Shown: one piece after another, positions 1,872 through 56,859 of the stretch | How the letters are laid out: each line of letters begins with the position of its first letter | How positions within the stretch are numbered: position 1 is the stretch's first letter | Assembly: GCA_016187925.1 (NCBI GenBank) | Contig: JACPIS010000037.1 | Span: 1-64,000, forward strand | Source: Opitutia bacterium | GTDB lineage: Bacteria > Verrucomicrobiota > Verrucomicrobiia > Opitutales > Opitutaceae | DNA: 64,000 nucleotides | Reading direction: 5' to 3' | The notes under the pieces: model-generated | Databases searched by the model: none | Seen by the model: the letters and a program-made list of their open reading frames with translations, nothing else | What the model was told of the DNA's origin: nothing | Program-made: the position numbers and the translations under genes

Positions 1872-3359
1872 TCAGCAGAGTTGGTAGTCGGGCGACTCGA
1901 GGAGCGCGGAGAGCGCGGCGCGGACTGCGGCTTCGGGCCGGGCGCCGCCGCGCGCGAGGAATTTCTCCAATTGGCTCCCGAACGGTTCGGCGGGCCGCCC
2001 GGGGAGCGCGCGGGCGAGCAGTTGTTGCGCCGCCTGGGCGGAGGGCAGCAGGGCGAGCGGCTTGAGCTGCTCGGGGCCGAGCGTGAAGTGAGTGACGCCC
2101 TCCGTGCGGGCGTTGGCGAGGGCGTGCTGCTCGTCGCCGTTGAGCGCGTCCTCGTTCAGCGGCGAGAGCAGGGCGTTGATGACCTGATGGCGGACGGCGA
2201 GCGTGGCGGAGTTGATCCAGGCCCGGCCGCCGACCCAGCCGCGGACGTTGGGCGGATCGAACGGCATCTGGCCCATCTGGCGCAGCGCACCGAGCACGCG
2301 GCGCGGCAGCGGCGCGACGCGCAGATCGAGGTCCTGCAGCAGGCCGAGGTAGAATTGCACCGGACCCTTGATGTAGTTGCCGCGAAATTCCTCGGCGAAA
2401 AACGCCCGGCTGCCGAAGAACGCGGCCGCCAGGCCGCCGAGGCTGTAGCCGCCGCGTGCCCACGCGGCGCCGAGTGCATCGGTGTAGGCAACGGGGAGCG
2501 GGGTGTCGCTGAGGTAAAAGCGGACCATTTCCTTCGGCAGGAACGTGCCGGCGGCCGGCTGCTTGAAGACGAGATCGATGACGTCGTCGCCCGTGTAATG
2601 TCCCGCATGCCCAAAGACGGTCATGCGGCCGGAGTCGTGCTGGCGCGGGTTGTAGATGAATTCCCCGGCGCGTTGCCGGTAACCCGTGAAGGCGCGCGCG
2701 GCCTGCTTGATGTCGGCCTCGGTGTAGTGGCCTTCGCCGAGGGTGAAGAGTTCGAAGAGCTCGCGGGCGAAATTTTCGTTCGGCGCCTCGCGCTGGCTCT
2801 GCTGCAGGTCGAGGTAGACGATCATCGCCGGCGAGCGCGACATGGCCTTGGCCAGGTTCGGTGCGCTGCCGAGGGCGAAGCGGCGGATGAGATCCTGATG
2901 CTGATAGATGAGCGCGGAGTTCTTGACCTTCTCGATGCTGACGACCCAGACGTCCGAGAGAAACAGCAGCCACTTCTCCGCCGGGGAAAGCTCCGGGCGC
3001 GACGCTTGATCAAGCCACCTGATCGTCATGTCGCCAAGCGCCTCGCGCGAGCGTTCGCGGGCATCCTGCGCGGCGAGACGCTTCTGCTCGGGGTCGCCCC
3101 GGTTCATGCGCCGGAAAAGCTCGGGCGCATCGGCCTCGAGTTCGGCGATGAGCTTCGGCTTGGCGAACGCCGGCATCTGCCCGAAGTGACGCTTCAGGGT
3201 CGGCAGCAGGCCGTCCTTCAGCGCGCGGGCGGTCTCGGCGGGCGTGGCGCTGAACCCGATGCGTTGGAACAGGTGCCGCGCGGCAGCTTCATCCCATTGT
3301 CTGGCGGGCAACGGCTGCCAGGCCTCGGCGGGGGAAAGGGTGGAGAGTTTTTCCGGCAT
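1872..3359 (-). CDS. DUF1800 family protein
   Basis: A 495-residue DUF1800 protein. It opens MPEKLSTLSPAEAWQPLPAR and shows the helical HLFQRIGFSATPAETARAL segment, then the family's NENFARELFELFTLGEGHYTE, an FTGYR segment, and PPNVRGWVGGRAWIN near residue 380. I chose the ATG at 3359; an in-frame TTG at 3410 would nearly abut the alr stop codon and add 17 low-complexity residues. The order tsaB, alr, this gene, DUF1501 on one strand suggests cotranscription. No enzymatic activity is established for the family. Confidence 0.88.
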   Translation of the reverse strand: MPEKLSTLSPAEAWQPLPARQWDEAAARHLFQRIGFSATPAETARALKDGLLPTLKRHFGQMPAFAKPKLIAELEADAPELFRRMNRGDPEQKRLAAQDARERSREALGDMTIRWLDQASRPELSPAEKWLLFLSDVWVVSIEKVKNSALIYQHQDLIRRFALGSAPNLAKAMSRSPAMIVYLDLQQSQREAPNENFARELFELFTLGEGHYTEADIKQAARAFTGYRQRAGEFIYNPRQHDSGRMTVFGHAGHYTGDDVIDLVFKQPAAGTFLPKEMVRFYLSDTPLPVAYTDALGAAWARGGYSLGGLAAAFFGSRAFFAEEFRGNYIKGPVQFYLGLLQDLDLRVAPLPRRVLGALRQMGQMPFDPPNVRGWVGGRAWINSATLAVRHQVINALLSPLNEDALNGDEQHALANARTEGVTHFTLGPEQLKPLALLPSAQAAQQLLARALPGRPAEPFGSQLEKFLARGGARPEAAVRAALSALLESPDYQLC

Positions 3360-3414
3360 GGCCCGTGGTTCGTTGCTCCTGAGACGCGCGGGGCCGGCGC
3401 CGGGTTTCAACGTC

Positions 3415-4569
3415 TCACACCCCGGCGGCGTTGCGGTAGAGGCGCGGCACGCGCTTGGTCACGGAACAAAGTGTTTCCCAGGGGATCGTGTCCGACCAGG
3501 CGCTGAACTCGGCCACGGAAATCTCGGCGCCGTTCTGCCGGCCGACGAGCACGACCGGCTCGCCGCAACGCACTTCGCCGGGCACGTCCGTGAGATCGAC
3601 GATGGTCTGATCCATGCAAACGCGACCGAGGATCGGGCAGCGGCGGCCGTGGATGAGCACGGCGCCGCGGTTGCTGCAGGCGCGCGCGATGCCGTCGCCG
3701 TAGCCGGCGGTGAGGATGGCGACGCGCGTCGGTCGGCGGAGCGTGTGTGTGCGGCCGTAGCTGACGCCGGTGCCCGCGGGGAGCTCTTTGACGAGGCCGA
3801 CGCGGGTGTGGAAACTGAACACCGGCTCGGTGCGCACGCGCGCGAGCAGGGAGTTGGGGTGGGGCAGCACGCCGAATTGCAGCAGACCGACGCGCGCGGC
3901 GTTGAACACACCGCCGTGGCCGGGCGTCGTCTCGAGGCCGGCGGAGTTGTCGGCGTGGATGAACAGGCTCGTCGGATCGAGGCCGGGCAGTTGCGCGAGG
4001 AGCGCGACGAAAATCCGGCGCTGCTCCGCGGTGAAGACGGGATCCTCGTCGGCGCTGGCGAAGTGCGTGAAGATGCCCGCGAGCCGCACGCCGCTCGCGG
4101 CGCGGATCTGCGCGTAGAGCGCGGCGGCCTGCTCGTGCCAGACGCCGAGCCGGCCCATGCCGGTGTCGACTTTCAGGTGGATGTCGATGGGCCGGCCGGC
4201 CGCGCGGCCGACGGCGTCGAAGCGCTGCACCTCGTCGGCGGACGAGACGGTGGCGGCCAGCGCGTGCTCGGCGAGGTACTTGTCCTCGTCGGGCAGCACG
4301 GCGCTGAGCAGCAGGATCGGCCAGTCGGCGCTGAGCTCGCGGATGGCCATTGCCTCGGCGATGTTGGCGACGGCGAAGAGGTCGGCCCCGGCGTGCATCA
4401 GCCGCGCGGCGGTCTGCGGCAGGCCGTGGCCGTAGGCGTCGGCCTTGACGACGGCGACGTAGCGGATGCCCGGCGGGAGCGAGGCGCGGATGAGCTTCAG
4501 GTTGCGCTCGAGCGCGGCGAGATCGATCTCGGCCCAGCAGCGGCGCGGGAGTTGGGCGGAGGGCATCAT
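3415..4569 (-). CDS. alr: Alanine racemase
   Basis: A PLP-dependent racemase that interconverts L- and D-alanine for peptidoglycan precursors in the cytoplasm. The PLP-lysine motif VVKADAYGHG places the Schiff-base Lys at about residue 42. The SYGRTHTLRR segment near residue 275 carries the catalytic tyrosine, followed by AGYGDG and GRVCMDQTIVD. The N-terminal barrel and C-terminal beta domain are both complete (384 residues). The start ATG at 4569 overlaps the tsaB stop (ATGA), which fixes the start and implies translational coupling. A much longer open frame upstream is only the antisense or shifted reading of tsaB. Confidence 0.95.
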   Translation of the reverse strand: MMPSAQLPRRCWAEIDLAALERNLKLIRASLPPGIRYVAVVKADAYGHGLPQTAARLMHAGADLFAVANIAEAMAIRELSADWPILLLSAVLPDEDKYLAEHALAATVSSADEVQRFDAVGRAAGRPIDIHLKVDTGMGRLGVWHEQAAALYAQIRAASGVRLAGIFTHFASADEDPVFTAEQRRIFVALLAQLPGLDPTSLFIHADNSAGLETTPGHGGVFNAARVGLLQFGVLPHPNSLLARVRTEPVFSFHTRVGLVKELPAGTGVSYGRTHTLRRPTRVAILTAGYGDGIARACSNRGAVLIHGRRCPILGRVCMDQTIVDLTDVPGEVRCGEPVVLVGRQNGAEISVAEFSAWSDTIPWETLCSVTKRVPRLYRNAAGV

Positions 4570-5255
4570 TTCGGATTGGCCGTTGCGGCGCTGTGGACCT
4601 GCGCAGACCACTTCTTGTATTCGGGCGCCTCGTATTGGAAGGCGTCGGGTGCGTCCGTGGCGGCGAACAGGTTTGCGTCGGCGTGCGCGGCGAGCAGTTG
4701 GGCGACATCGTAGGCGCAGTCTTGCGTGGCGCGCGGCGATTTTGCCCAGGCGCGGAACGCGGTGGGCTGGTAGAGCGGCTTGGTGCCGGTCGCGAGTTCG
4801 GTCACCGGGACGCGGCGGAGCGGGGCGATTTGGCCGGCGGCGGACACGGTCACGTCGTGCCACGTGTCGCGCCGGGCGTCGGCGATGACGGCGAACGGCG
4901 CCGGGGTGCCGGCGCGCTGCAGTTCGTGCGCGAGCAGCACGAGGCTCTGGTAGCGGTAGGCGGGGCGGGGTTGCACGGCCTGCCAGGTGCGGATGGCCAT
5001 CGCGACGGTGCGGACGCCGAGCATCGAACCGGGACCCTCGCAAAAGACGAAGGCGCGGACCGCATCGAGGCCCACGCCGGCGTCGCGCAGGCCGGCGGCA
5101 GCGCAGGCGAAGAGCGACTTGCTGGCCTCGTCGGGCGACGTATGCCACACGGCGGGCGCGCCGGTGCGCAGCAGGCCGACTTGCACGGACGTGGCGGCGG
5201 CGTCGAGCACGAGGATACAGCCGTGATTGGCAAGGAGTTGGGCAAGGGTCGCCAT
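4566..5255 (-). CDS. tsaB: tRNA threonylcarbamoyladenosine biosynthesis protein TsaB
   Basis: TsaB is the ASKHA-fold partner of TsaD/TsaE in t6A37 modification of ANN-decoding tRNAs. Seen here: the N-terminal nucleotide-fold strand ILVLDAAATSVQVGLL and the characteristic FCEGPGSMLGVRTVAMAI (residues ~71-88), a variant of the usual GPGSFTGLRIG. At 229 residues it matches TsaB rather than the longer TsaD. Its stop overlaps the alr start. The start ATG at 5255 gives a plausible N-terminus. Confidence 0.88.
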   Translation of the reverse strand: MATLAQLLANHGCILVLDAAATSVQVGLLRTGAPAVWHTSPDEASKSLFACAAAGLRDAGVGLDAVRAFVFCEGPGSMLGVRTVAMAIRTWQAVQPRPAYRYQSLVLLAHELQRAGTPAPFAVIADARRDTWHDVTVSAAGQIAPLRRVPVTELATGTKPLYQPTAFRAWAKSPRATQDCAYDVAQLLAAHADANLFAATDAPDAFQYEAPEYKKWSAQVHSAATANPK

Positions 5256-5398
5256 CGCGCGCGCAGCTTGGGTGGTGTTGGCGGAAAATCCAAGCGGGAT
5301 TCGAGCGTGGCACCGGGAGAAACAGGCCTTGACCGGGCTGGAGGAGGCGACTTACCTCGACCTCTTTTCCGTCCGAAAACCACTCTGAATTTAAAGCC

Positions 5399-6724
5399 GT
5401 GAACGTCCAAATCGCCGACATCAACGATACCCGCAAAACGCTGACCGTGACCCTCGACAAGGGTGAGGTCGATGGTGAATACAAGGTCATCCTTGGCCAG
5501 TTCGCCCAACAGGTGCGCCTGCCCGGCTTCCGCCCCGGCAAGGCCCCGGCCCAGCTGGTCGAGCGCCACTACGGCAAGGAGCTGCGCGAGGAGTTCAAGG
5601 GCCGCGTCGTCAGCAAGGCCTACCGCGACGGCCTCGAGCAGTCCAAGCTCAACGTGATCTCGCTCGTCGACGTCGAGGAGGGCGAGGTCCAGCCCGGCCT
5701 GTCCGCCGCCATCAAGCTCACCGTGGACGTCCGCCCGGAGTTCACCCTGCCCGAATACGCCGGCCTCGAGACCGAGATCCAGCCCACCGAGCCGACCGAC
5801 GCCGAGATCGACGCCGTGATCGAGGGCCTGCGCTCCGAGCGCGCCGATTTCAAGGTCGCCGAGCGCCCCGCCGCCAAGGGCGATTACGTGCGCTTCGGCT
5901 ACGAGGGGACGCTCGACGGCAAGCCGCTGGCCGACATCGTCGCCGACAAGGCCATCTACGCCAAGGCCCCGCAGACGTGGGAAGAGGTCGAGGGCGCCAA
6001 CGAGGGCCTCCTGCCCGGCATGAGCAAGGAACTCGCCGGCGTGAAGGCCGGCGACAAGAAGACCGTCACGCTGGGCTTCCCGGCGGAGTTCGCCGCCGCG
6101 CCCGCGCTGGCCGGCAAGACCGTCGCCTACGCCATCGAGGTGCAGGAGGTGCGCGAGCGCGCGTTGCCGCCGCTCGACGAGAAGTTTTTCAAGGAAAACC
6201 AGGTCGACAGCCTCGACGCGCTCAAGGCGCAGGTGAAGCAGAGCCTGAGCATGCGCAAGGACTACGAGAACCGCGCCGCGCAGCGCCGCCAGATCACCGA
6301 CGCGCTGCTCGCCAAGGCGAGCTTCCCCGCGCCGGAGAGCCTCGTGGCCAGCGAGCGCGACGGCGTGCTCCGCCAGTTCATCGAGGAGAACATGCGCCGC
6401 GGCGTGCCGCAGGAGGATTTCGAGAAGAACAAGAAGGAGCTCTTCGAGAGCGCCTCGAAGGCCGCCGTCGCCCGCGTGAAGATGCAGCTCATCCTCGCCA
6501 AGATCGCCGAGGCCGAGAAGATCAAGGTCGACGAGCAGGACCTCAACAGCTGGCTCATGCGCGAGGCCATGCGCTCCGGCCAGAAGCCCGACAAGCTCGC
6601 CAAGGAGCTGGGCAAGGACCGCGAGCACATCCGCGGCATCCAGCAGCAGATCCTCTTCGACAAGGCCCTTGATTTCCTCGTCTCCAAGGCTACCGTGAAG
6701 ACGGCCTCAGCGCCGAAATCATGA
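5399..6724 (+). CDS. tig: Trigger factor, ribosome-associated chaperone and PPIase
   Basis: A 441-residue trigger factor. The N-terminal ribosome-binding domain carries the signature [19 protein letters not shown] (residues ~39-57). A PPIase FKBP-like domain follows around residues 150-240 ([17 protein letters not shown]), then the long helical C-terminal domain. The start is GTG at 5399, without a strong Shine-Dalgarno. The stop TGA overlaps the clpP ATG (ATGA at 6721-6724), so tig and clpP are coupled. The tig-clpP-clpX order is a classic conserved proteostasis cluster. Confidence 0.95.
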
Positions 6725-11129: not shown

Positions 11130-11188
11130 GCCTGGCGTTCACGGTGAGCCATCCCGCGCATGCGGGATTGGCTCTGATTTTATCGAAA
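11130..11188 (-). other. attC-like site a3
   Basis: Minus-strand CAGAGCCA (L'') precedes a perfect stem ATCCCGC-ATGC-GCGGGAT, then TGGCTCACCGTG (L') and the R'-like GCCAGGC at 11130-11136. The L''/L' pair is nearly the same as in sites b1 and b4 of array 2, more than 40 kb away. Confidence 0.7.
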
Positions 11189-11593
11189 TCATGGCTGCGG
11201 CGGCAGCGCGCTCATATGGAAGAGCCCCCATCCGTGGCCGTCGGGGTCGACGAAGCTGTGCGTATACATAAATCCAAAGTCCTCCGCCTTGTCGTAGGTC
11301 GAGCCTCCCGCGGCGATGGCCTTCGCGACGAGATAGTCGACTTCCTGACGGCTCTCGCAGCTGAGGTTAATCAGGACCTCCACCGCCTGGGTCGTATTGC
11401 AGATGGCTTTGGGGGTGAACTGGCGGAACTTGGCATGCGTCAACAGCATGACGTTGATCGTCTCGCTGATGACGACACAGGCGGCCGTGTTGTCGGTGAA
11501 CTGCGGATTGTGCGAATAGCCGAGCGCCTTGAAAAAGGCCATCGACCTGGGCAAGTCGGCGACCGGGACGTTGAGGAATATCTGTTTGCTCAT
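11189..11593 (-). CDS. VOC (glyoxalase/bleomycin-resistance) superfamily protein, cassette-borne
   Basis: A 134-residue VOC protein: MSKQIFLNVPVADLPRSMAF opens the first beta-alpha-beta-beta-beta unit, and FMYTHSFVDPDGHGWGLFHM closes the second with a typical DPDGH segment. It is close to the lactoylglutathione lyase-like group; substrate unknown. It differs from its neighbours in having about 70 nt between the attC R' core (11664-11670) and its ATG instead of 7-9 nt. That leader contains an 8-codon frame starting at 11649 on the minus strand. Confidence 0.88.
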   Translation of the reverse strand: MSKQIFLNVPVADLPRSMAFFKALGYSHNPQFTDNTAACVVISETINVMLLTHAKFRQFTPKAICNTTQAVEVLINLSCESRQEVDYLVAKAIAAGGSTYDKAEDFGFMYTHSFVDPDGHGWGLFHMSALPPQP

Positions 11594-11663
11594 GTGAGTG
11601 GATTTTCGACCACTGCCTTAACGAATGAACCAGCTGATTTCAGACATGGCGCCGTTTTTTTTC

Positions 11664-11804
11664 GTCTAACGATTGAGCTTAGCCGCGTCCACCGGGAGCG
11701 GCAGACGGAGTTTGGAGCGGGCTTATCATAATGGGGAAGGGTGGATGGCGAGGAGTGCGAGGTCTCGGCGGGGAGCGTTGGCTGCGGTGGCTGATTGGTT
11801 GGTC
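11664..11804 (-). other. attC site a4 (classical form)
   Basis: The R' core GTTAGAC (11664-11670) matches GTTRRRY exactly. It is preceded by L' GCGGCTAAGCTCAAT, strikingly close to the GCGGCTTAACTCAAG form of class 1 integron cassettes. The R'' core GACCAAC sits at 11798-11804, just after the upstream gene's stop. The 141-bp length is within the known attC range. Confidence 0.85.
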
Positions 11805-11807
11805 TTT

Positions 11808-12110
11808 TCAACGCTGAGCGCCATACGCCAGGTAAGCGTAGAAAACGGAAACTCCCGTAAACGCTGCACACGCGAGCGCCGCGCCCACAGCCATGCCTCT
11901 TCGATTCTGCTTCATAAAAATCACTCCGGCAGCCACGGCCATGACGGCGGGGTAAGCGGCGTAAATGGCCGCCGACACCTCTTTCGACTGTCGTGCCATC
12001 ATCGGCATGAGGAAGACGCTTCCAAACGCGAACACCGCAAACGGCAGCGGAAGCAAGGAACGCTTCGTCGTGCTCGGGCCTGCTGAGGACTTGGTGGGAG
12101 ATGCGCACAT
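11808..12110 (-). CDS. Small membrane protein, cassette-borne
   Basis: A 100-residue protein with three predicted hydrophobic segments (about residues 20-38, 48-65 and 74-96; for example AIYAAYPAVMAVAAGVIFM). No family is recognised. The ATG lies 8 nt after the R' of site a5, the same spacing as neighbouring cassettes, which supports this start. Small hydrophobic proteins of unknown role are common cassette cargo. Confidence 0.65.
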   Translation of the reverse strand: MCASPTKSSAGPSTTKRSLLPLPFAVFAFGSVFLMPMMARQSKEVSAAIYAAYPAVMAVAAGVIFMKQNRRGMAVGAALACAAFTGVSVFYAYLAYGAQR

Positions 12111-12118
12111 AATTTTGG

Positions 12119-12286
12119 GACTGACGCCTCAGATCAGCCACGCCCGTCGGGCAGGCGCGCCGTCACTTCCTGTCGCGCCGTAGTCTTGGCGAGGGTGGCT
12201 GAAATACGGGGCTATGTGGAGCGGAGATGACATCGGCGATTTAGGTGAGAGCAAGGGCGTCGCGCTGGGCTGGCTATTGGTTGGGC
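12119..12286 (-). other. attC site a5
   Basis: R' GTCAGTC (12119-12125) is preceded by L' GTGGCTGATCTGAG. The R'' core GCCCAAC (12280-12286, perfect RYYYAAC) lies inside the last codons of the upstream gene. The 168-bp site shares long similarity with a6 (12579-12743) and b2 (52608-52742). Confidence 0.75.
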
Positions 12287-12570
12287 TCGGTTCTTCGATC
12301 TTCTGAACGCAACTTGTAGCGCTCCCTTTCGACAAACCAGCGATAGGAACCACGGCCGGAATAGTAGCCAGGAATCAGGACCAAAAGGGTAAGCCACATG
12401 TAGGTCATGGACCACCACTCTGGTGCGTCCGAGCACATCGCGATGACGTGCGTGAGCACGCCGACTACACCCCAGACCATAAAGCAGGCGTAGCTGGCTG
12501 CTAGGCCGGCAACGATGGCGAGGATCCAGGCTGCTGTCTTCTTTCCGGTGCTGATGTCAGATGAAGGCAT
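12274..12570 (-). CDS. Small membrane protein, cassette-borne
   Basis: A 98-residue protein with two hydrophobic segments (AAWILAIVAGLAASYACFMVW near residue 13, and MTYMWLTLLVLIPGYY near 55) and a charged, Arg-rich tail. No family is recognised. Its ATG is 8 nt after the R' of site a6. Its 3' end runs into attC a5, so the R'' core GCCCAAC is translated in the tail, as happens in compact cassettes. Confidence 0.65.
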   Translation of the reverse strand: MPSSDISTGKKTAAWILAIVAGLAASYACFMVWGVVGVLTHVIAMCSDAPEWWSMTYMWLTLLVLIPGYYSGRGSYRWFVERERYKLRSEDRRTEPNQ

Positions 12571-12578
12571 ATCTTTTC

Positions 12579-12743
12579 GCCCAATGATTCAGATCAGCCC
12601 CGCCCGTCGGGCGGACAAGCCGTCTGTTCTTGTCGCGCCGAAGCCTTGGCGAAGGCGGATGAAATACGGGGTCATGTGGAGCGGAAGCATCATCGGTGAT
12701 TTAGATGAGAGCTAGGGCGTCGCGCTGTGGCTGCTAGTTTTAC
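12579..12743 (-). other. attC site a6
   Basis: R' ATTGGGC (12579-12585) is one base from GTTRRRY and sits 8 nt before the next ATG. L' GGGCTGATCTGAATC matches a5 and b2, and a diverged R'' (GTAAAAC, 12737-12743) follows the upstream gene. The site is 165 bp with a long imperfect palindrome. Confidence 0.7.
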
Positions 12744-51558: not shown

Positions 51559-51900
51559 GGGCGGTTGCCCTCAACCGCCCGTTCCGGTCTTTGGCGCGCC
51601 TGCGCTGGTAGGGCGGGACCGCTGGGCCCGCCGTGCTCTCATCCTAAATCCCGTAGCTGGGTAACCGCTAATCTTCGCTCATCAGCGCTGATAAAATTGC
51701 AGCAACACAAATCCATAAAACCGCGTATCCCGGGCAGGTGAAGGAACCAAACGTAGATTCGCAGACCCAATCTGCTGATTAGCGTTCATTAGCGCCAATT
51801 AGCGGTTGGTTGTAGGGCGGGGTCGCCTGACCCCGCCGCGAACGTGATCTTGTGATGGAAGGCATGAGGCGGGGTCAGCGACCCCGCTCTACAATTTTCC
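51557..51900. repeat. Gene-free stretch with REP-like palindromes
   Basis: GTAGGGGCGGTTGCCCTCAACCGCCC-type unit at 51557-51582, a GTAGGGCGGGACC unit near 51609-51633, a GTAGGGCGGGGTC unit near 51812-51837 and its inverse near 51871-51893. Between them lie ATTAGCG-type repeats (51778-51806). I see no gene. Confidence 0.75.
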
Positions 51901-51952
51901 GGGATGGATGCTAGAAATTGCACACCCGTATCCTCGCCGTGTTCGACCTCGC

Positions 51953-52018
51953 GGCGAACGTCACAGATGAGCCATGGCAGGGCGCCGCCCTGCCATTGGC
52001 TCTGGCGATTTGTTAGCC
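51953..52018 (-). other. attC site b1
   Basis: R'' GGCTAAC (52012-52018), spacer AAATCGC, L'' CAGAGCCA, a perfect TGGCAGGGC/GCCCTGCCA-type stem, L' TGGCTCATCTGTG and R' GTTCGCC (51953-51959). The 66-bp length and order R''-L''-L'-R' are those of a compact attC. The TAA stop of the upstream cassette gene lies inside R''. Confidence 0.88.
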
Positions 52019-52600
52019 CTTCTTTGCATTTCGGATCGGTCGCTTCACAAGTGGTGGATAGGGTAAGTCGGGAGGCGACATCGTGATCGAATCCAAGTTC
52101 ACGCCGGCGGAACCATAGTCGAGGTATGGGAGGAAATACTGGCGTAGATCGTGGAGATGCTGCTGAACAAACCACCCCTGCAGGGACGGCACGTCGGTAA
52201 GAACAGTGCTGCCTTGAAAGTAACCGACGATTCCACCTACGACTGGACCATCTTCACATGGGAGATCTTCCAAGATGCCTCGAATTGCCAGGGCGTTCGC
52301 AATGACCTCTCGGTGATACTTTCGAATCTCGGGTCCAAAAAGAAACTCGAACTTCTCTGTCTCCTGCTCGAACTTCTTCAGAGCAGGCTCGCTATAGCGA
52401 TCATGGAGTGCGCAGTGCTCAACAAAGTCTTTGAACGCCAAGTAAACTGCGTATCGCTGATCAAAGAGCTTAATTCGAAGATCTGATCTCTGGTTGTGAA
52501 TCTGCGCGCGCGCAATGCGCCAACCGAAGAACCAAGCGCCCGCGCCGAGGAAGAGCTGAATGGCCGACGTAACGATCAACTTCTTGGTCTCGATATCCAT
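52013..52600 (-). CDS. Hypothetical membrane-anchored protein, cassette-borne
   Basis: A 195-residue protein with one N-terminal membrane segment (LIVTSAIQLFLGAGAWFFGWRIA, residues ~8-30) and a charged helical remainder (NQRSDLRIKLFDQRYAVYLAFKDF...). No named family; proteins with this outline are frequent in mobile cassettes. Its ATG is 7 nt after the R' core GTTAGCC of site b2, and its TAA stop is part of the R'' of site b1. Confidence 0.8.
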   Translation of the reverse strand: MDIETKKLIVTSAIQLFLGAGAWFFGWRIARAQIHNQRSDLRIKLFDQRYAVYLAFKDFVEHCALHDRYSEPALKKFEQETEKFEFLFGPEIRKYHREVIANALAIRGILEDLPCEDGPVVGGIVGYFQGSTVLTDVPSLQGWFVQQHLHDLRQYFLPYLDYGSAGVNLDSITMSPPDLPYPPLVKRPIRNAKKG

Positions 52601-52607
52601 CTGCTTT

Positions 52608-52742
52608 GGCTAACGCTTCAGATCAGCCACGCCCGCCGGGCGGGCGAGCCGTCTCTTTTGAATAACTGGGTCATGTCGAGCGGAGATATCATCAGCGAAT
52701 CAGGTGAGAGCAAGGGCGTTGGTCTGTGGCTGCTGGATCGGC
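52608..52742 (-). other. attC site b2
   Basis: R' GTTAGCC (52608-52614) preceded by L' GTGGCTGATCTGAAGC; the R'' is diverged (GCCGATC, 52736-52742), with L'' AGCAGCCAC. The 135-bp site is a close relative of a5 and a6 in array 1. Confidence 0.85.
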
Positions 52743-52743
52743 C

Positions 52744-53343
52744 TCAATTTATGGTCACGATGTCGCCTATCTCATCAATGCCGTCGTGCGCAGCGTCACG
52801 GACGAAGAATGGCGCGACCTCGGATAAGACATAAAGTCCGGTCGGAAGCTTCGTGATGAAGGACAGCAACCTTCCCTCAAGAACGTCCGTCTCGGTATCG
52901 AGCTTCGTGAGCAGCGATGCAATCAGAGCCTGCACTTCGGGCAGCTTCTTTCTTCCGAATGGTAGCAGCCGAGCCGGGACCCAGTAGTGCTGGGAATCGC
53001 GCTGCTTCAGCAAACGAATCTGATGGCACACCTTTCCGGCTGCTGGATCGCCAAGATCTCCGTCGAGATGTGCATGAGCCTTGTCGCGCGCCTCAATCAG
53101 GAGGCGATGCAGGGACAAATTCTCGGCGGGAACAAAGCTCTCCTCGAGCATCGACATGCCACGCGAGCGCTTAAATGGGCGTGCGTAGTGGGTGACCAGC
53201 GAGGTAATGCCGGAAAGAAATGCCATGCTCGTTTCCGGGCTAATCTGCGACAACTGCGTGCAGTCGTGGTCGGCAAACTTCAGGGCATCGGTCGCATAGC
53301 CGAGTGAAATGAACCGCTGCACGTCTTGTTTGGTGGGATTCAT
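52744..53343 (-). CDS. Hypothetical protein, cassette-borne
   Basis: A 199-residue soluble protein (MNPTKQDVQRFISLGYATDALK...). The pattern ETSMAFLSGITSLVTHYARPFKRSRG followed by RDKAHAHLDGD is reminiscent of cassette-borne or HEPN-like helical proteins, but I cannot assign it. The ATG lies 8 nt after the R' of site b3. Confidence 0.75.
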   Translation of the reverse strand: MNPTKQDVQRFISLGYATDALKFADHDCTQLSQISPETSMAFLSGITSLVTHYARPFKRSRGMSMLEESFVPAENLSLHRLLIEARDKAHAHLDGDLGDPAAGKVCHQIRLLKQRDSQHYWVPARLLPFGRKKLPEVQALIASLLTKLDTETDVLEGRLLSFITKLPTGLYVLSEVAPFFVRDAAHDGIDEIGDIVTIN

Positions 53344-53351
53344 CTTCTTCC

Positions 53352-53418
53352 GCCGATCGTCATCAGTCAGACACGGAGGGGCGAAGCCCCGGAGTTGTCT
53401 GTGATGATCTGGTTAGCC
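53352..53418 (-). other. attC site b3
   Basis: R'' GGCTAAC (53412-53418) directly follows the upstream stop; a stem GGGGC-TTC-GCCCC with flanking AGACAAC / GTGTCT arms follows, then R' GATCGGC (53352-53358), two bases from GTTRRRY. The 67-bp site closely matches b5 in layout (ATCACAGACAAC ... GTGTCTGACTG). Confidence 0.82.
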
Positions 53419-53419
53419 C

Positions 53420-53869
53420 TTATTTCCATAGTCCAACTGAACTGACGCAAATCTCGCCCTGCTCACGCAACACCACAAACTGAATTTTGGCCTTCTTTCC
53501 GGCGGCCGACATAAAATCCTGCTTATAAGCCCAACCGGTAGTGCCCTTACGGTCGTCGACGTAATGCACTCGTCCGCTGTTCAGCATCCGGGGGAAGAGT
53601 TGAATCGCTGGGATGGTATCGGCTAGATAGAGCTGCCGCAGCTTCTCAATTCCGGTCTGCTGGATCGTCACCTTGCTGGTGAGCGAAATCATTCCTTCTG
53701 CATCACCGGCGATAGCAAAGGCGACGAATCTCCGCATGACCGGCTCGAACTTCGCAGGATCATCGCGCTCCAACATTTGGATCATCCTGTCCATGTCTCG
53801 AGGGCCAGCCGCGCAACCACATGCGATAATCGCAACGGTCGCACACACGAGTTGTGCAAGAATCTTCAT
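53420..53869 (-). CDS. Putative lipoprotein, cassette-borne
   Basis: A 149-residue protein with a lipoprotein signal (MKILAQLVCATVAIIACGC; Cys near residue 17) and a mature part with two alpha-beta stretches (MIQMLERDDPAKFEPVMRRF; TGIEKLRQLYLADTIPAI). No family is recognised. I chose the ATG at 53869, 8 nt after R' of site b4; a longer open frame runs back into the attC palindrome. Confidence 0.75.
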   Translation of the reverse strand: MKILAQLVCATVAIIACGCAAGPRDMDRMIQMLERDDPAKFEPVMRRFVAFAIAGDAEGMISLTSKVTIQQTGIEKLRQLYLADTIPAIQLFPRMLNSGRVHYVDDRKGTTGWAYKQDFMSAAGKKAKIQFVVLREQGEICVSSVGLWK

Positions 53870-53877
53870 CTCTCTTC

Positions 53878-53968
53878 GGCTAACGTTACAGATGAGCCAC
53901 GACCCTGCTTGGCACCAAAGGCTGCTCCGCAGCCGACGTGCCAAGCAGGGTCGTTGGCTCTAGCGACT
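53878..53968 (-). other. attC site b4, 3' part (split by the IS element)
   Basis: R' GTTAGCC (53878-53884), L' GTGGCTCATCTGTAAC, a long stem (ACGACCCTGCTTGGCAC against its inverse) and L'' TAGAGCCA are present. The R'' that should lie 7 nt beyond is instead at 55333-55339 (GCCCAAC, perfect RYYYAAC), on the far side of the inserted element. Confidence 0.88.
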
Positions 53969-53983
53969 TCCATGAGAAGGCGT

Positions 53984-54228
53984 GTCGAGGGTAATGTTTA
54001 AAATGGTTCACCATTTTGCTGGTCGGTGCCGTTGGCCCTCGGCGGTTCCGGATGGTCAGGCTTCCATACGCACTCGGTGGGTGGGCGTCAATGCCCGGGC
54101 GGTGCAGGGAGGAGTCCGTGAAACCGGAGAGGGGCTGGCCCTGCCTACTGGTTATCGCATTGATTGCTCATGCTGGCGCCAGATCGCAGTAGCCAAAGGA
54201 CGGAACCTGGGTGGGAAATATTCGGGAA
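53984..54228 (-). ncRNA. Candidate bridge RNA region of the IS element
   Basis: The 245 nt downstream of the transposase stop are non-coding and end near a perfect AAAATGGT-TC-ACCATTTT hairpin (54000-54017). In IS1111-type elements the bridge RNA is encoded downstream of the recombinase. The minus-strand 10-mer AACCAGTAGG (54144-54153) is identical to the junction of attC R'' with the transposase-proximal IS end (55326-55335), as a guide segment would be. The RNA ends and fold are not defined. Confidence 0.45.
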
Positions 54229-55287
54229 TCAGGCGGCTTGGAGGAGGGGTTGATACTCGGCCCCGCTTTTCCAGAGGGCGAGGAGCGTGACGGCGAGCTT
54301 GCGGGCGACGGCGATGACGGCGCGTTTCTTGGCGGACTTGCCGCCGCGCAAGGCGATGCGCTCGCCGGCCTCACGCAAGTGCGAGGGCGGGCCGAAGGGC
54401 CCGAGGATGTAGTGGGCACAGTTGACCAGCAGGCAGCGCAACTGGCCGTTGCCGGCCTTGGTGATGGGCAGCTGCTTGTCGGTGAGACCCGATTGATCCC
54501 TTCGGGGCACGAGTCCGAGGTAGGCGCCCACGTCGCGGGTGTGCGGGAAGCGCGCCGGCGTCTCGACGGTGAGCACGAAGCACAGGGCGGTCAGCGGGCC
54601 GACGCCGTCGACCTGGCGCAGACGGGCGGTGACGGGATATTGCTCATCAGCCATCTGTTCGAGCCGGACGTCGAGTTGTTTGATCTGGGCGTTGAGCGCA
54701 TCGATGGTCTGCAGCAGCGGCTCGACCAGCGCGGCCGTCGCGGCGTCGGCGCGGGCCCGGAACTGGCGCACGAAGGCGGTGGCCTTGACGCCACGGGGCA
54801 CGACCAGCCCGAGGCTCTTCACGAGAAAACGGACACTGTTCATCTGGTTGACGCGGGAGCGCACGAGGGCCTCGCGGACCTTCAGCTGCACCAAGGCGCG
54901 CTGGGCAGACTCGCTGCGGTGCTGCACCGGGCTGAGCAAGGCGGGATCGGCCCGGCCGAGCCGGGCAAGCATCCGCGCGTCCTCCTCGTCGCTCTTGGTC
55001 GTGCTCTGCGAGATCGCCCGCAGCTTGCGGGCGTTGGCCACGATCACCGCGTGGCCCAGGGCCTGGAGCAGGCGGCTCACCCACGGGCTGTGCGTGCCGG
55101 TCTCCATCACGAAGGTGGCCCCGGGATGCTTCTGCGCGAAGGCCGTCAGGCACTCGCGCGTGTTGGTGATCGCTTCCTCGGCGAGAATCTCGCCGGCGGT
55201 AGAGAGGACGCAGGCGCTGTGCTTGCGGTCCCCGAGGTCGATTCCGATCGTGACGTTGTTCGTGGTCATAAGGCGGAGAGTATCCAC
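54229..55287 (-). CDS. IS110 family transposase (DEDD recombinase)
   Basis: A 352-residue IS110-type transposase. The N-terminal RuvC-like domain has TIGIDLGD (Asp), FVMETGTHS (Glu) and KSDEEDARMLARL (Asp pair); a coiled-coil linker follows; the C-terminal Transposase_20 part has VDGVGPLTALCFVLTV, LGLVPRRDQSG and LPITKAGNGQLR. The GTG at 55287 has GGAAG six bases upstream; an ATG at 55269 is the alternative. The gene is complete, with 44 nt of element sequence before it and about 260 nt after it. Confidence 0.93.
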   Translation of the reverse strand: MDTLRLMTTNNVTIGIDLGDRKHSACVLSTAGEILAEEAITNTRECLTAFAQKHPGATFVMETGTHSPWVSRLLQALGHAVIVANARKLRAISQSTTKSDEEDARMLARLGRADPALLSPVQHRSESAQRALVQLKVREALVRSRVNQMNSVRFLVKSLGLVVPRGVKATAFVRQFRARADAATAALVEPLLQTIDALNAQIKQLDVRLEQMADEQYPVTARLRQVDGVGPLTALCFVLTVETPARFPHTRDVGAYLGLVPRRDQSGLTDKQLPITKAGNGQLRCLLVNCAHYILGPFGPPSHLREAGERIALRGGKSAKKRAVIAVARKLAVTLLALWKSGAEYQPLLQAA

Positions 55288-55332
55288 CTCACACTTCCGT
55301 GCGAGGCGCTCTACGCCTTCTCATTCCTACTG

Positions 55333-55346
55333 GTTGGGCGTTTTCT
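55333..55346 (-). other. attC site b4, R'' part
   Basis: GCCCAAC (minus strand, 55333-55339) lies 7 nt after the stop of the upstream cassette gene and directly before the IS boundary. It is the missing R'' of the site at 53878-53968. Confidence 0.85.
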
Positions 55347-55772
55347 TCATGCGATAAGAGAGGCACGGTAATTTTCTTTGTGGGTCAAACGAGTGCAGTC
55401 TTTCTGTGGACAGAAAAATCGGTCCGACTTCTCCTGCAAAAGCGACTCGATGCCTCGATTCAAACAGGAAGGACAATAATGTAGTCCCGTCTTCTTATGT
55501 CTCCACACACCAACTTGCGGTATGAATTCCAAGTCCCTCTTCAATCGCCTGATTCCCGAGCGGCTCCAAATAAAGTAACCAACCAAAACCAGATTTAGCG
55601 CGAGGGACAGCAAAAGAGCCGACGCGAGCGACTCCTTCTTGATTGCCGGAAAGACCGATGTCACGACCGCTGCCCATGCGTCTCGGCCGATGAATGCCAG
55701 TAAGATGCCCAAGCCCGAAAGCAGAACCGTCAGCGCGCTTCGAGTCAGCTCTTCTTTAATCAACTTTAGCAT
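55347..55772 (-). CDS. Membrane protein with C-terminal zinc-ribbon-like motif, cassette-borne
   Basis: A 141-residue protein from ATG 55772: two hydrophobic segments (SALTVLLSGLGILLAFIG; ALLLSLALNLVLVGYFIW), then a soluble tail with HYCPSCLN and FFCPQKDC, a C-x2-C / C-x4-C-like metal site. An in-frame ATG at 55793 would add 7 residues but lies inside the attC R' core of site b5. Similar membrane plus zinc-ribbon proteins are common, uncharacterised cassette cargo. Confidence 0.75.
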   Translation of the reverse strand: MLKLIKEELTRSALTVLLSGLGILLAFIGRDAWAAVVTSVFPAIKKESLASALLLSLALNLVLVGYFIWSRSGIRRLKRDLEFIPQVGVWRHKKTGLHYCPSCLNRGIESLLQEKSDRFFCPQKDCTRLTHKENYRASLIA

Positions 55773-55787
55773 ACGGCGGATTTTTTT

Positions 55788-55854
55788 GCCCATCGTCAGC
55801 AGTCAGACACGACGGGGCGCAGCCCCGTCGTTGTCTGTGATGCTCTGGATGGGC
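55788..55854 (-). other. attC site b5
   Basis: R'' GCCCATC (55848-55854) and R' GATGGGC (55788-55794) are perfect inverses. Between them an ACGACGGGGC / GCCCCGTCGT stem with a TGC-type loop and the same ATCACAGACAAC / GTGTCTGACTG arms as b3. The R' deviates from GTTRRRY in having GAT for GTT. Confidence 0.82.
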
Positions 55855-55857
55855 CGT

Positions 55858-56340
55858 TCATTCGTGTGCTCCAATCAATGCCTGCCAATAAGAGCGGATG
55901 TATGGCTGGTGAACACCGGCGGTGATCTCTTTCGCGAATCTCCCTAGAAGGTCGTCTCGCGACTGATAAGTCGAAGCACGCTGCACAGCCTCTTCCTTCT
56001 TAATCTGCCATATGGCAGACAGAGCGTCGGCCCGGAAATAATCGATCTCCTCGGCGCTTTCGAGAATGCGGCGCAACGCTGGCAAGGCATCGGGGCGACC
56101 GTCGATACCGAGAAAACCAATAGCATACCTTCGCTTCTGCATCTTTGGGTCGGCGACCTCTTGGGCGACGCGCTCATGCACAACGCGGCTGTGAAGAATC
56201 AAAGGGTCCATGAGCATATCTTCCGCCCGATCTTTCGCGGCGTAGAAATCTTGCATCACAGCATCGGCTGACGGCTGGAAAGCGCGCCACGCGATTACAG
56301 CAACGACTCCGAGGCCAAAAAGATATCCGATACGCTTCAT
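55858..56340 (-). CDS. Hypothetical protein with N-terminal signal, cassette-borne
   Basis: A 160-residue protein: a signal anchor (MKRIGYLFGLGVVAVIAWRAF) and a helical mature part with RRYAIGFLGIDGRPDALPALRRILES, which resembles a HEAT-like helical pair. No family is assigned. The ATG at 56340 is 8 nt after the R' of site b6, the standard spacing in this array; an upstream ATG at 56373 would lie beyond the core and is rejected. Confidence 0.78.
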   Translation of the reverse strand: MKRIGYLFGLGVVAVIAWRAFQPSADAVMQDFYAAKDRAEDMLMDPLILHSRVVHERVAQEVADPKMQKRRYAIGFLGIDGRPDALPALRRILESAEEIDYFRADALSAIWQIKKEEAVQRASTYQSRDDLLGRFAKEITAGVHQPYIRSYWQALIGAHE

Positions 56341-56348
56341 CTTTCTTC

Positions 56349-56480
56349 GCCCATCAGTGTTATTGTGCCGCACTCGAAAGCCGCACCGGGAAAGGGTTCA
56401 TGGCGGCATTTCACCCCGCAACTCCCTCGGATTCAAGACCGCAGATTTTGGGTGCGGCTTTACGCGGGTGCAGGTGGTGC
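56349..56480 (-). other. attC-like site b6, head of cassette array 2
   Basis: R' GATGGGC (56349-56355) as in b5, with an 11-bp inverted pair AAAGCCGCACC / GGTGCGGCTTT (56377-56387 and 56451-56461) around about 63 bp. The R'' is not clear (perhaps GCACCAC near 56474). No attI or integrase gene lies beyond it. Confidence 0.6.
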
Positions 56481-56490
56481 TGGCGCGCTC

Positions 56491-56730
56491 TTATTTTTCG
56501 CGGGCCAGGGTCGAGTAGTGTGCGCCCCAATAGAGGGCGAGGCCAGCCAGTCCGCCGACCAAGGCGACGAGGGTCCATTCGCCGCGGGTCAGGATGTGGA
56601 TCGGCTGGTGGCGATAGTTGCGCTCCGACGCATCGCGGTTGATGGCGATGGCAAGCACGCCGTGCATAAACAGCAGGGCGACAGCAGCAAGGACGCCCGA
56701 AGCTCCGGCAAACAGAGGAATGATAGTCAT
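56491..56730 (-). CDS. Small membrane protein
   Basis: A 79-residue protein with two hydrophobic segments (FAGASGVLAAVALLFMHGVLAIAI and WTLVALVGGLAGLALYWGAHY) joined by a charged NRDASERNYRHQPIHILTRGE loop. No family is recognised. It lies just outside the last recognisable attC of array 2, so it may be chromosomal rather than a cassette. Start ATG 56730. Confidence 0.7.
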   Translation of the reverse strand: MTIIPLFAGASGVLAAVALLFMHGVLAIAINRDASERNYRHQPIHILTRGEWTLVALVGGLAGLALYWGAHYSTLAREK

Positions 56731-56859
56731 GGGAGGTTGGTGGCCCGCAGGGGTCAGCTCAATCGAGTCGCCCGATCTTGGCAAGCGCCCAGCAATAAGC
56801 GCGCGGATGTTGCCGCGCGCTTCGGGTGGTCGTCGGGCCCGACTTCGTGTCGGACATTC

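Follow-up and report, generated by a model that had tools for sequence, protein, structure and literature searches.

An attI-headed cassette array in an Opitutaceae genome, probably an integron whose integrase gene was lost

Gene content of the array

The window, i.e. the whole stretch of 64,000 nucleotides that was analysed (G000:C5:1-64000), belongs to a genome of 4.0 Mb in 48 contigs, with an estimated completeness of 100%. This genome is a member of the Candidatus Didemnitutus group; another genome of the same genus, G116, carries an IntI 100% identical to that of Candidatus Didemnitutus sp. (Opitutaceae, Verrucomicrobiota). Towards the end of the window, five minus-strand genes are separated by small palindromic sites, one of which is interrupted by an insertion sequence (IS). 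An initial annotation had described the region as a CALIN with five cassette genes and six attC sites, b1 to b6. The five genes are present as ORFs and sites b1, b2, b3 and b5 are real attC sites; b4 is also real but split by the IS, and b6 corresponds to an attI core. The features are the following (CM R1, covariance model R1).

51953-52018, minus strand: attC b1, last site of the array; R'' GGCTAAC, R' GTTCGCC; CM R1 73.9 bits, E 7e-15
52013-52600, minus strand: cassette 5 gene (ORF), 195 aa, N-terminal membrane segment
52608-52742, minus strand: attC b2, long class, 135 bp; R'' GCCGATC (52736-52742), R' GTTAGCC; copies in arrays of relatives
52744-53343, minus strand: cassette 4 gene, 199 aa
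53352-53418, minus strand: attC b3; R'' GGCTAAC, R' GATCGGC; CM R1 64.6 bits, E 1e-12
53420-53869, minus strand: cassette 3 gene (ORF), 149 aa, lipoprotein-like signal
53878-53966, minus strand: remainder of attC b4 (L'', variable stem, L', R' GTTAGCC); CM R1 30.1 bits, E 1.1e-4 (29.3 bits with filters off)
53967-55329, minus strand: IS110-family, IS1111-type IS; subterminal inverted repeat ATGAGAAGGCGT; ends approximate, from junctions compared across copies
54229-55269, minus strand: IS110-family DEDD transposase, 346 aa; NF033542 1.8e-63, PF01548/PF02371
55333-55339, minus strand: R'' of attC b4, GCCCAAC, read from the sequence and separated from the rest of the site by the IS
55347-55793, minus strand: cassette 2 gene (ORF), 148 aa, possible membrane/zinc-ribbon protein
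55788-55854, minus strand: attC b5; R'' GCCCATC, R' GATGGGC; CM R1 80.4 bits, E 2.2e-16
55858-56340, minus strand: cassette 1 gene (ORF), 160 aa; weak BrxA match
56349-56364, minus strand: attI core AATAACACTG^ATGGGC, head of cassette 1 (former b6)

The spacing of 7-8 nt proposed between the sites and the start codons holds for four genes when counted from R' to the ATG, while the start codon of the 148-aa gene overlaps with R' itself. Searches of Pfam, NCBIfam and PADLOC gave no family for the proteins of cassettes 2 to 5 (four of the five). As for the HEAT-like and zinc-ribbon cargo suggested before, the HEAT_2 match of the cassette 1 protein is weak (7e-4, under the Pfam cut-off) and the zinc ribbon comes from a CxxC...CxxxxC pattern alone. 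For the 199-aa protein, a homologue with 29% identity was found in a different genus (G003), where it lies between two attC matches. A 72% identical homologue of the 195-aa protein is also found in another genus (G102), at a place where no attC was detected. This patchy distribution of homologues of both proteins is typical of cassettes.

Left of the array, positions 51663-51894 contain nested palindromic repeats (GTAGGGCGGGGTCGC / GCGACCCCGC) that are dispersed in the genome. Elsewhere in the window, the region labelled 'first CALIN' (11137-12735, minus strand) includes two long sites of the b2 type (12114-12272 and 12588-12735) and weaker attC matches at 11137-11178 and 11664-11804; no attI motif was found in this region.

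Structure of the attC sites

When positions 51560-56800 were compared by BLASTN with the genomes of 57 relatives, most matches fell in the small palindromic sites and in the IS, and others in short repeats of the flanks. The palindromic sites recur in tandem beside the IntI genes of the relatives. Model R1 was built from 22 short sites, all from other genomes and none from the source genome. Their alignment has the attC structure, a palindrome of the form R''-L''-stem-L'-R' with 87.5% standard pairs, and the pairs covary: in the relatives' sites the covariation score was 0.273, versus 0.092 in shuffles and at most 0.06 in slid registers, and there were 55 doubly changed cells versus 24 in the shuffles. 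The covariance search that had been suggested as a check of the sites recovered b5, b1, b3 and b4, all on the minus strand, with E values from 2e-16 to 1e-4. Across 38 loci (relatives plus contig C35 of the source genome, 535 kb) the same model gave 141 matches at E<=1e-3, those in intI-bearing loci being on the strand opposite to intI and on its 5' side. Location of attC on the strand opposite to intI is the usual integron layout. Rfam at the gathering score found no attC, and a simple structural search for pairs of R'' and R' returned 95 candidates in the window, a number that makes it useless without the model.

Site b2 belongs to a separate class of 135 bp, with full-length copies 87-92% identical in relatives, the closest (92%) in the intI-bearing locus L073. 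A reading of its R'' as GACCAAC was discarded; the sites of the relatives and the match between cassette head and tail place R'' at GCCGATC.

Canonical attC cores are RYYYAAC and GTTRRRY. The cores first proposed for b1 and b5 (both R'' and R') and for b2 and b4 (R' GTTAGCC) are present as described. R' starts with GTT in b1 and b2 and with GAT in b3 and b5, and b1, b2 and b3 fit RRRY only in part; the relatives' sites that adjoin intI have the same mixture of GTT and GAT. Within b2 and within b3 the two cores are mismatched, as expected for recombined junctions. The cores of b5 match perfectly, and b1, b3 and b5 are well preserved.

In the predicted folds of b1, b4 and b5 a T of the bottom strand stays unpaired, as the extrahelical base, and the unpaired column is conserved in alignment A1. 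It is in this conserved bulge and in the R1 score that strand specificity can be seen, b1 and b5 scoring 74-80 bits on the minus strand versus 23-24 bits on the plus strand. A lack of strand-specific folding bias had been put forward as grounds for rejecting the sites. Folding energy proved a weak test and was abandoned for this purpose, top and bottom strands differing by about 0.1-0.6 kcal/mol in b1, b3, b4 and b5 and by about 5 kcal/mol only in b2. The CALIN reading itself agrees with the covariance model, the conserved asymmetric bulge, the orientation of the sites and the match between cassette heads and tails.

Insertion sequence in attC b4

The IS, which the initial annotation did not mention, splits b4 at R''-CAG/TAGGAATG...CATGGAAG/L'' (slashes mark the junctions). 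It has the features of the IS1111 group, namely a DEDD transposase, subterminal inverted repeats and a 3' non-coding region. Its left junction recurs at R''-C[AC]AG or R''-AAG in five loci of relatives (L040, L044, L046, L047 and L053), the R''-C[AC]AG/TAGG form of the junction being the one used to recognize the separated R'' of b4. The copies that the source genome carries on contigs C29, C37 and C46 are not within clear attC sites, which makes the short CCAG...CAGAG part the likely target. The element, presumably RNA-guided, would have entered b4 at a later time between R'' and L''.

Cassette boundaries and core classes

In integrons the bases that follow the first G of R' are already part of the following cassette, and the head of a cassette should therefore be complementary to its own tail R''. 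While present, IntI would insert circular cassettes at the G^WT of attI or attC, each inserted cassette bringing its own head (WTNNNN) and tail (NNNNAWC). Since both ends would travel together, each head is expected to match the tail of its own cassette rather than the core next to it. Among 104 cassettes from the relatives and from the array of contig C35, head and own tail matched at 6/6 positions in 87, and the mean match was 5.70, whereas the two cores within a site averaged 4.76 and random pairs from the same array 4.69. In the window four of the five cassettes are perfect.

Cassette 1: head ATGGGC, tail GCCCATC, 6/6
Cassette 2: head ATGGGC, tail GCCCAAC, 5/6
Cassette 3: head TTAGCC, tail GGCTAAC, 6/6
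Cassette 4: head ATCGGC, tail GCCGATC, 6/6
Cassette 5: head TTAGCC, tail GGCTAAC, 6/6

This comparison provides an assay-free test to separate true cassette arrays from look-alike palindromes, and its outcome here points to past recombination by an IntI.

The main surprise of the locus is the class of cores with GAT in R' or ATC in R'' instead of GTT/AAC, which makes up about 20% of the sites and exchanges with the GTT/AAC class. Head and tail agree in the class of the W position in 17 + 76 cassettes versus 8 (Fisher p 4e-12), and 25 sites mix the two classes, indicating that these recombine with each other. In five relatives a GAT-headed cassette is located directly at attI. Tolerance of GAT at secondary sites is known for IntI1 (PMC10127599), and in the literature searched, with partial coverage, no description of GAT as a regular cassette core was found. 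On balance we consider it probable that cassettes of both classes share arrays and attI in the Opitutaceae integrons and that G^WT serves their IntI as a regular core instead of being accepted at rare secondary sites only. If confirmed, the GAT class would loosen the GTT rule on which attC finders and recombination models are based.

The attI core

Motif AATAACACTGWT is found in about 30 relatives at the head of the array, on the strand opposite to intI and mostly 51-135 bp from its start. It appears once in the window, with 0.04 occurrences expected when one mismatch is allowed, and the extended motif AATAACACTGWTNNNC has a single match in the whole 4-Mb genome, precisely at the head of cassette 1. 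The alternative of b6 being an attC site was rejected, as R1 gave no match there even with the filters off and the attI motif is found instead. Upstream of the 12-base core the window is only weakly similar to other attI regions, so this attI may itself be truncated. In many relatives (for example in the attI regions of L075, L079, L083, L084 and L085) the core is directly preceded by a short inverted repeat around ACTNAGT; this repeat is degenerate in the window. The same kind of array, headed by attI and devoid of intI, was likewise found at locus L050 of the sister genome G096, which has no IntI match.

Absence of the integrase gene

The intI gene would be expected on the plus strand next to attI, rightwards from 56364, but no match to intI was found in the window. 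Whole-genome searches detected no intact intI in the assembly, only Xer-like and phage-type recombinases and a 5' fragment of intI. The fragment is on contig C35, which holds a second array headed by the attI-like sequence AATATACTGAT. This array has four sites at 3102-5576, in addition to a site of 135 bp at 4519, and ends with a truncated site of the b2 type. Upstream of this array and divergent from it, an ORF of 158 aa is similar to the N-terminal region of the Didemnitutus IntI (43-47% identity over about 95-114 residues) and has no catalytic domain, being a 5' remnant of intI. A dispersed repeat lies near both truncated ends of this decayed integron (L036, positions 2116-6316 of C35). 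Verrucomicrobial IntI proteins (L040 4498-5961, L066, L067 and L094) are extended at the N-terminus by about 100-150 residues that precede the SAM-like domain and lie outside TIGR02249, and it is this part that survives on C35.

We estimate at roughly 87% the probability that 51953-56364 is a chromosomal integron, headed by attI and with five minus-strand cassettes, whose integrase gene has been lost. The cassettes could now move only by the action of an IntI in trans. Such an enzyme might be encoded in a gap of the assembly or on another replicon and keep the array mobile: with 48 contigs, an intact intI could be absent from the assembly, the preservation of b1, b3 and b5 and the perfect cores of b5 would fit a functional array, and IntI is found in 63 of 150 genomes of the family. 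We nevertheless regard present mobility as unlikely, given the estimated completeness of 100% and the kinds of recombinases that the genome searches returned.

The genes that flank the array are adjacent and without any array in the sister genomes G153 (105 bp apart) and G133 (about 630 bp). This would also fit cassettes inserted one by one at a secondary chromosomal site by an IntI encoded elsewhere, with attI and intI never present here, which is one of the three origins proposed for CALINs (PMC8618304). However, cassette 1 follows exactly the attI motif AATAACACTG, which occurs once in 4 Mb, and not a random GWT, making this origin very improbable. Finally, ordinary palindromic repeats of the REP or MITE type, fallen by chance between small genes, could be imagined in a genome so rich in dispersed palindromes, but they can be practically dismissed by the orientation opposite to intI, the conserved bulge and the attI, and are refuted by the head-tail statistics.

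Returning to the integron with attI, either it lost intI here within this lineage or attI and the cassettes arrived without the gene. We favour the first alternative. An attI kept at the head of the array argues for loss of intI, another of the proposed CALIN origins (PMC8618304).

Comparison with known integrons and insertion sequences

Verrucomicrobiota are listed among the integron-bearing phyla (PMC8618304). The array shares its attC families, attI motif and cassette orientation with the sedentary chromosomal integrons of Verrucomicrobiota and Opitutaceae. The difference is that intI adjoins the array in G116, G149 and others and is missing here. It is an ordinary decayed integron of Opitutaceae, of a kind already known, to which the many junctions with a GAT core add a useful twist.

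With at least two attC and without an integrase either close by or elsewhere in the assembly, the array also fits the usual definition of CALIN (IntegronFinder, PMC9024848), but it differs in retaining attI at its head. It is better described as an integron without intI than as cassettes dropped off-target. From sequence alone, the locus illustrates one route to a CALIN, in which the docking site is kept and the integrase is gone.

The IS resembles the attC-targeting IS1111-type elements ISKpn4 and ISPst6 (PMC11187229) in its DEDD transposase, its subterminal repeats, the long non-coding region downstream of tnp and the insertion at one fixed place of attC in a fixed orientation. It differs from them in its identity of about 36% to the closest matches from the plasmid collection and in having copies outside attC as well in the source genome.
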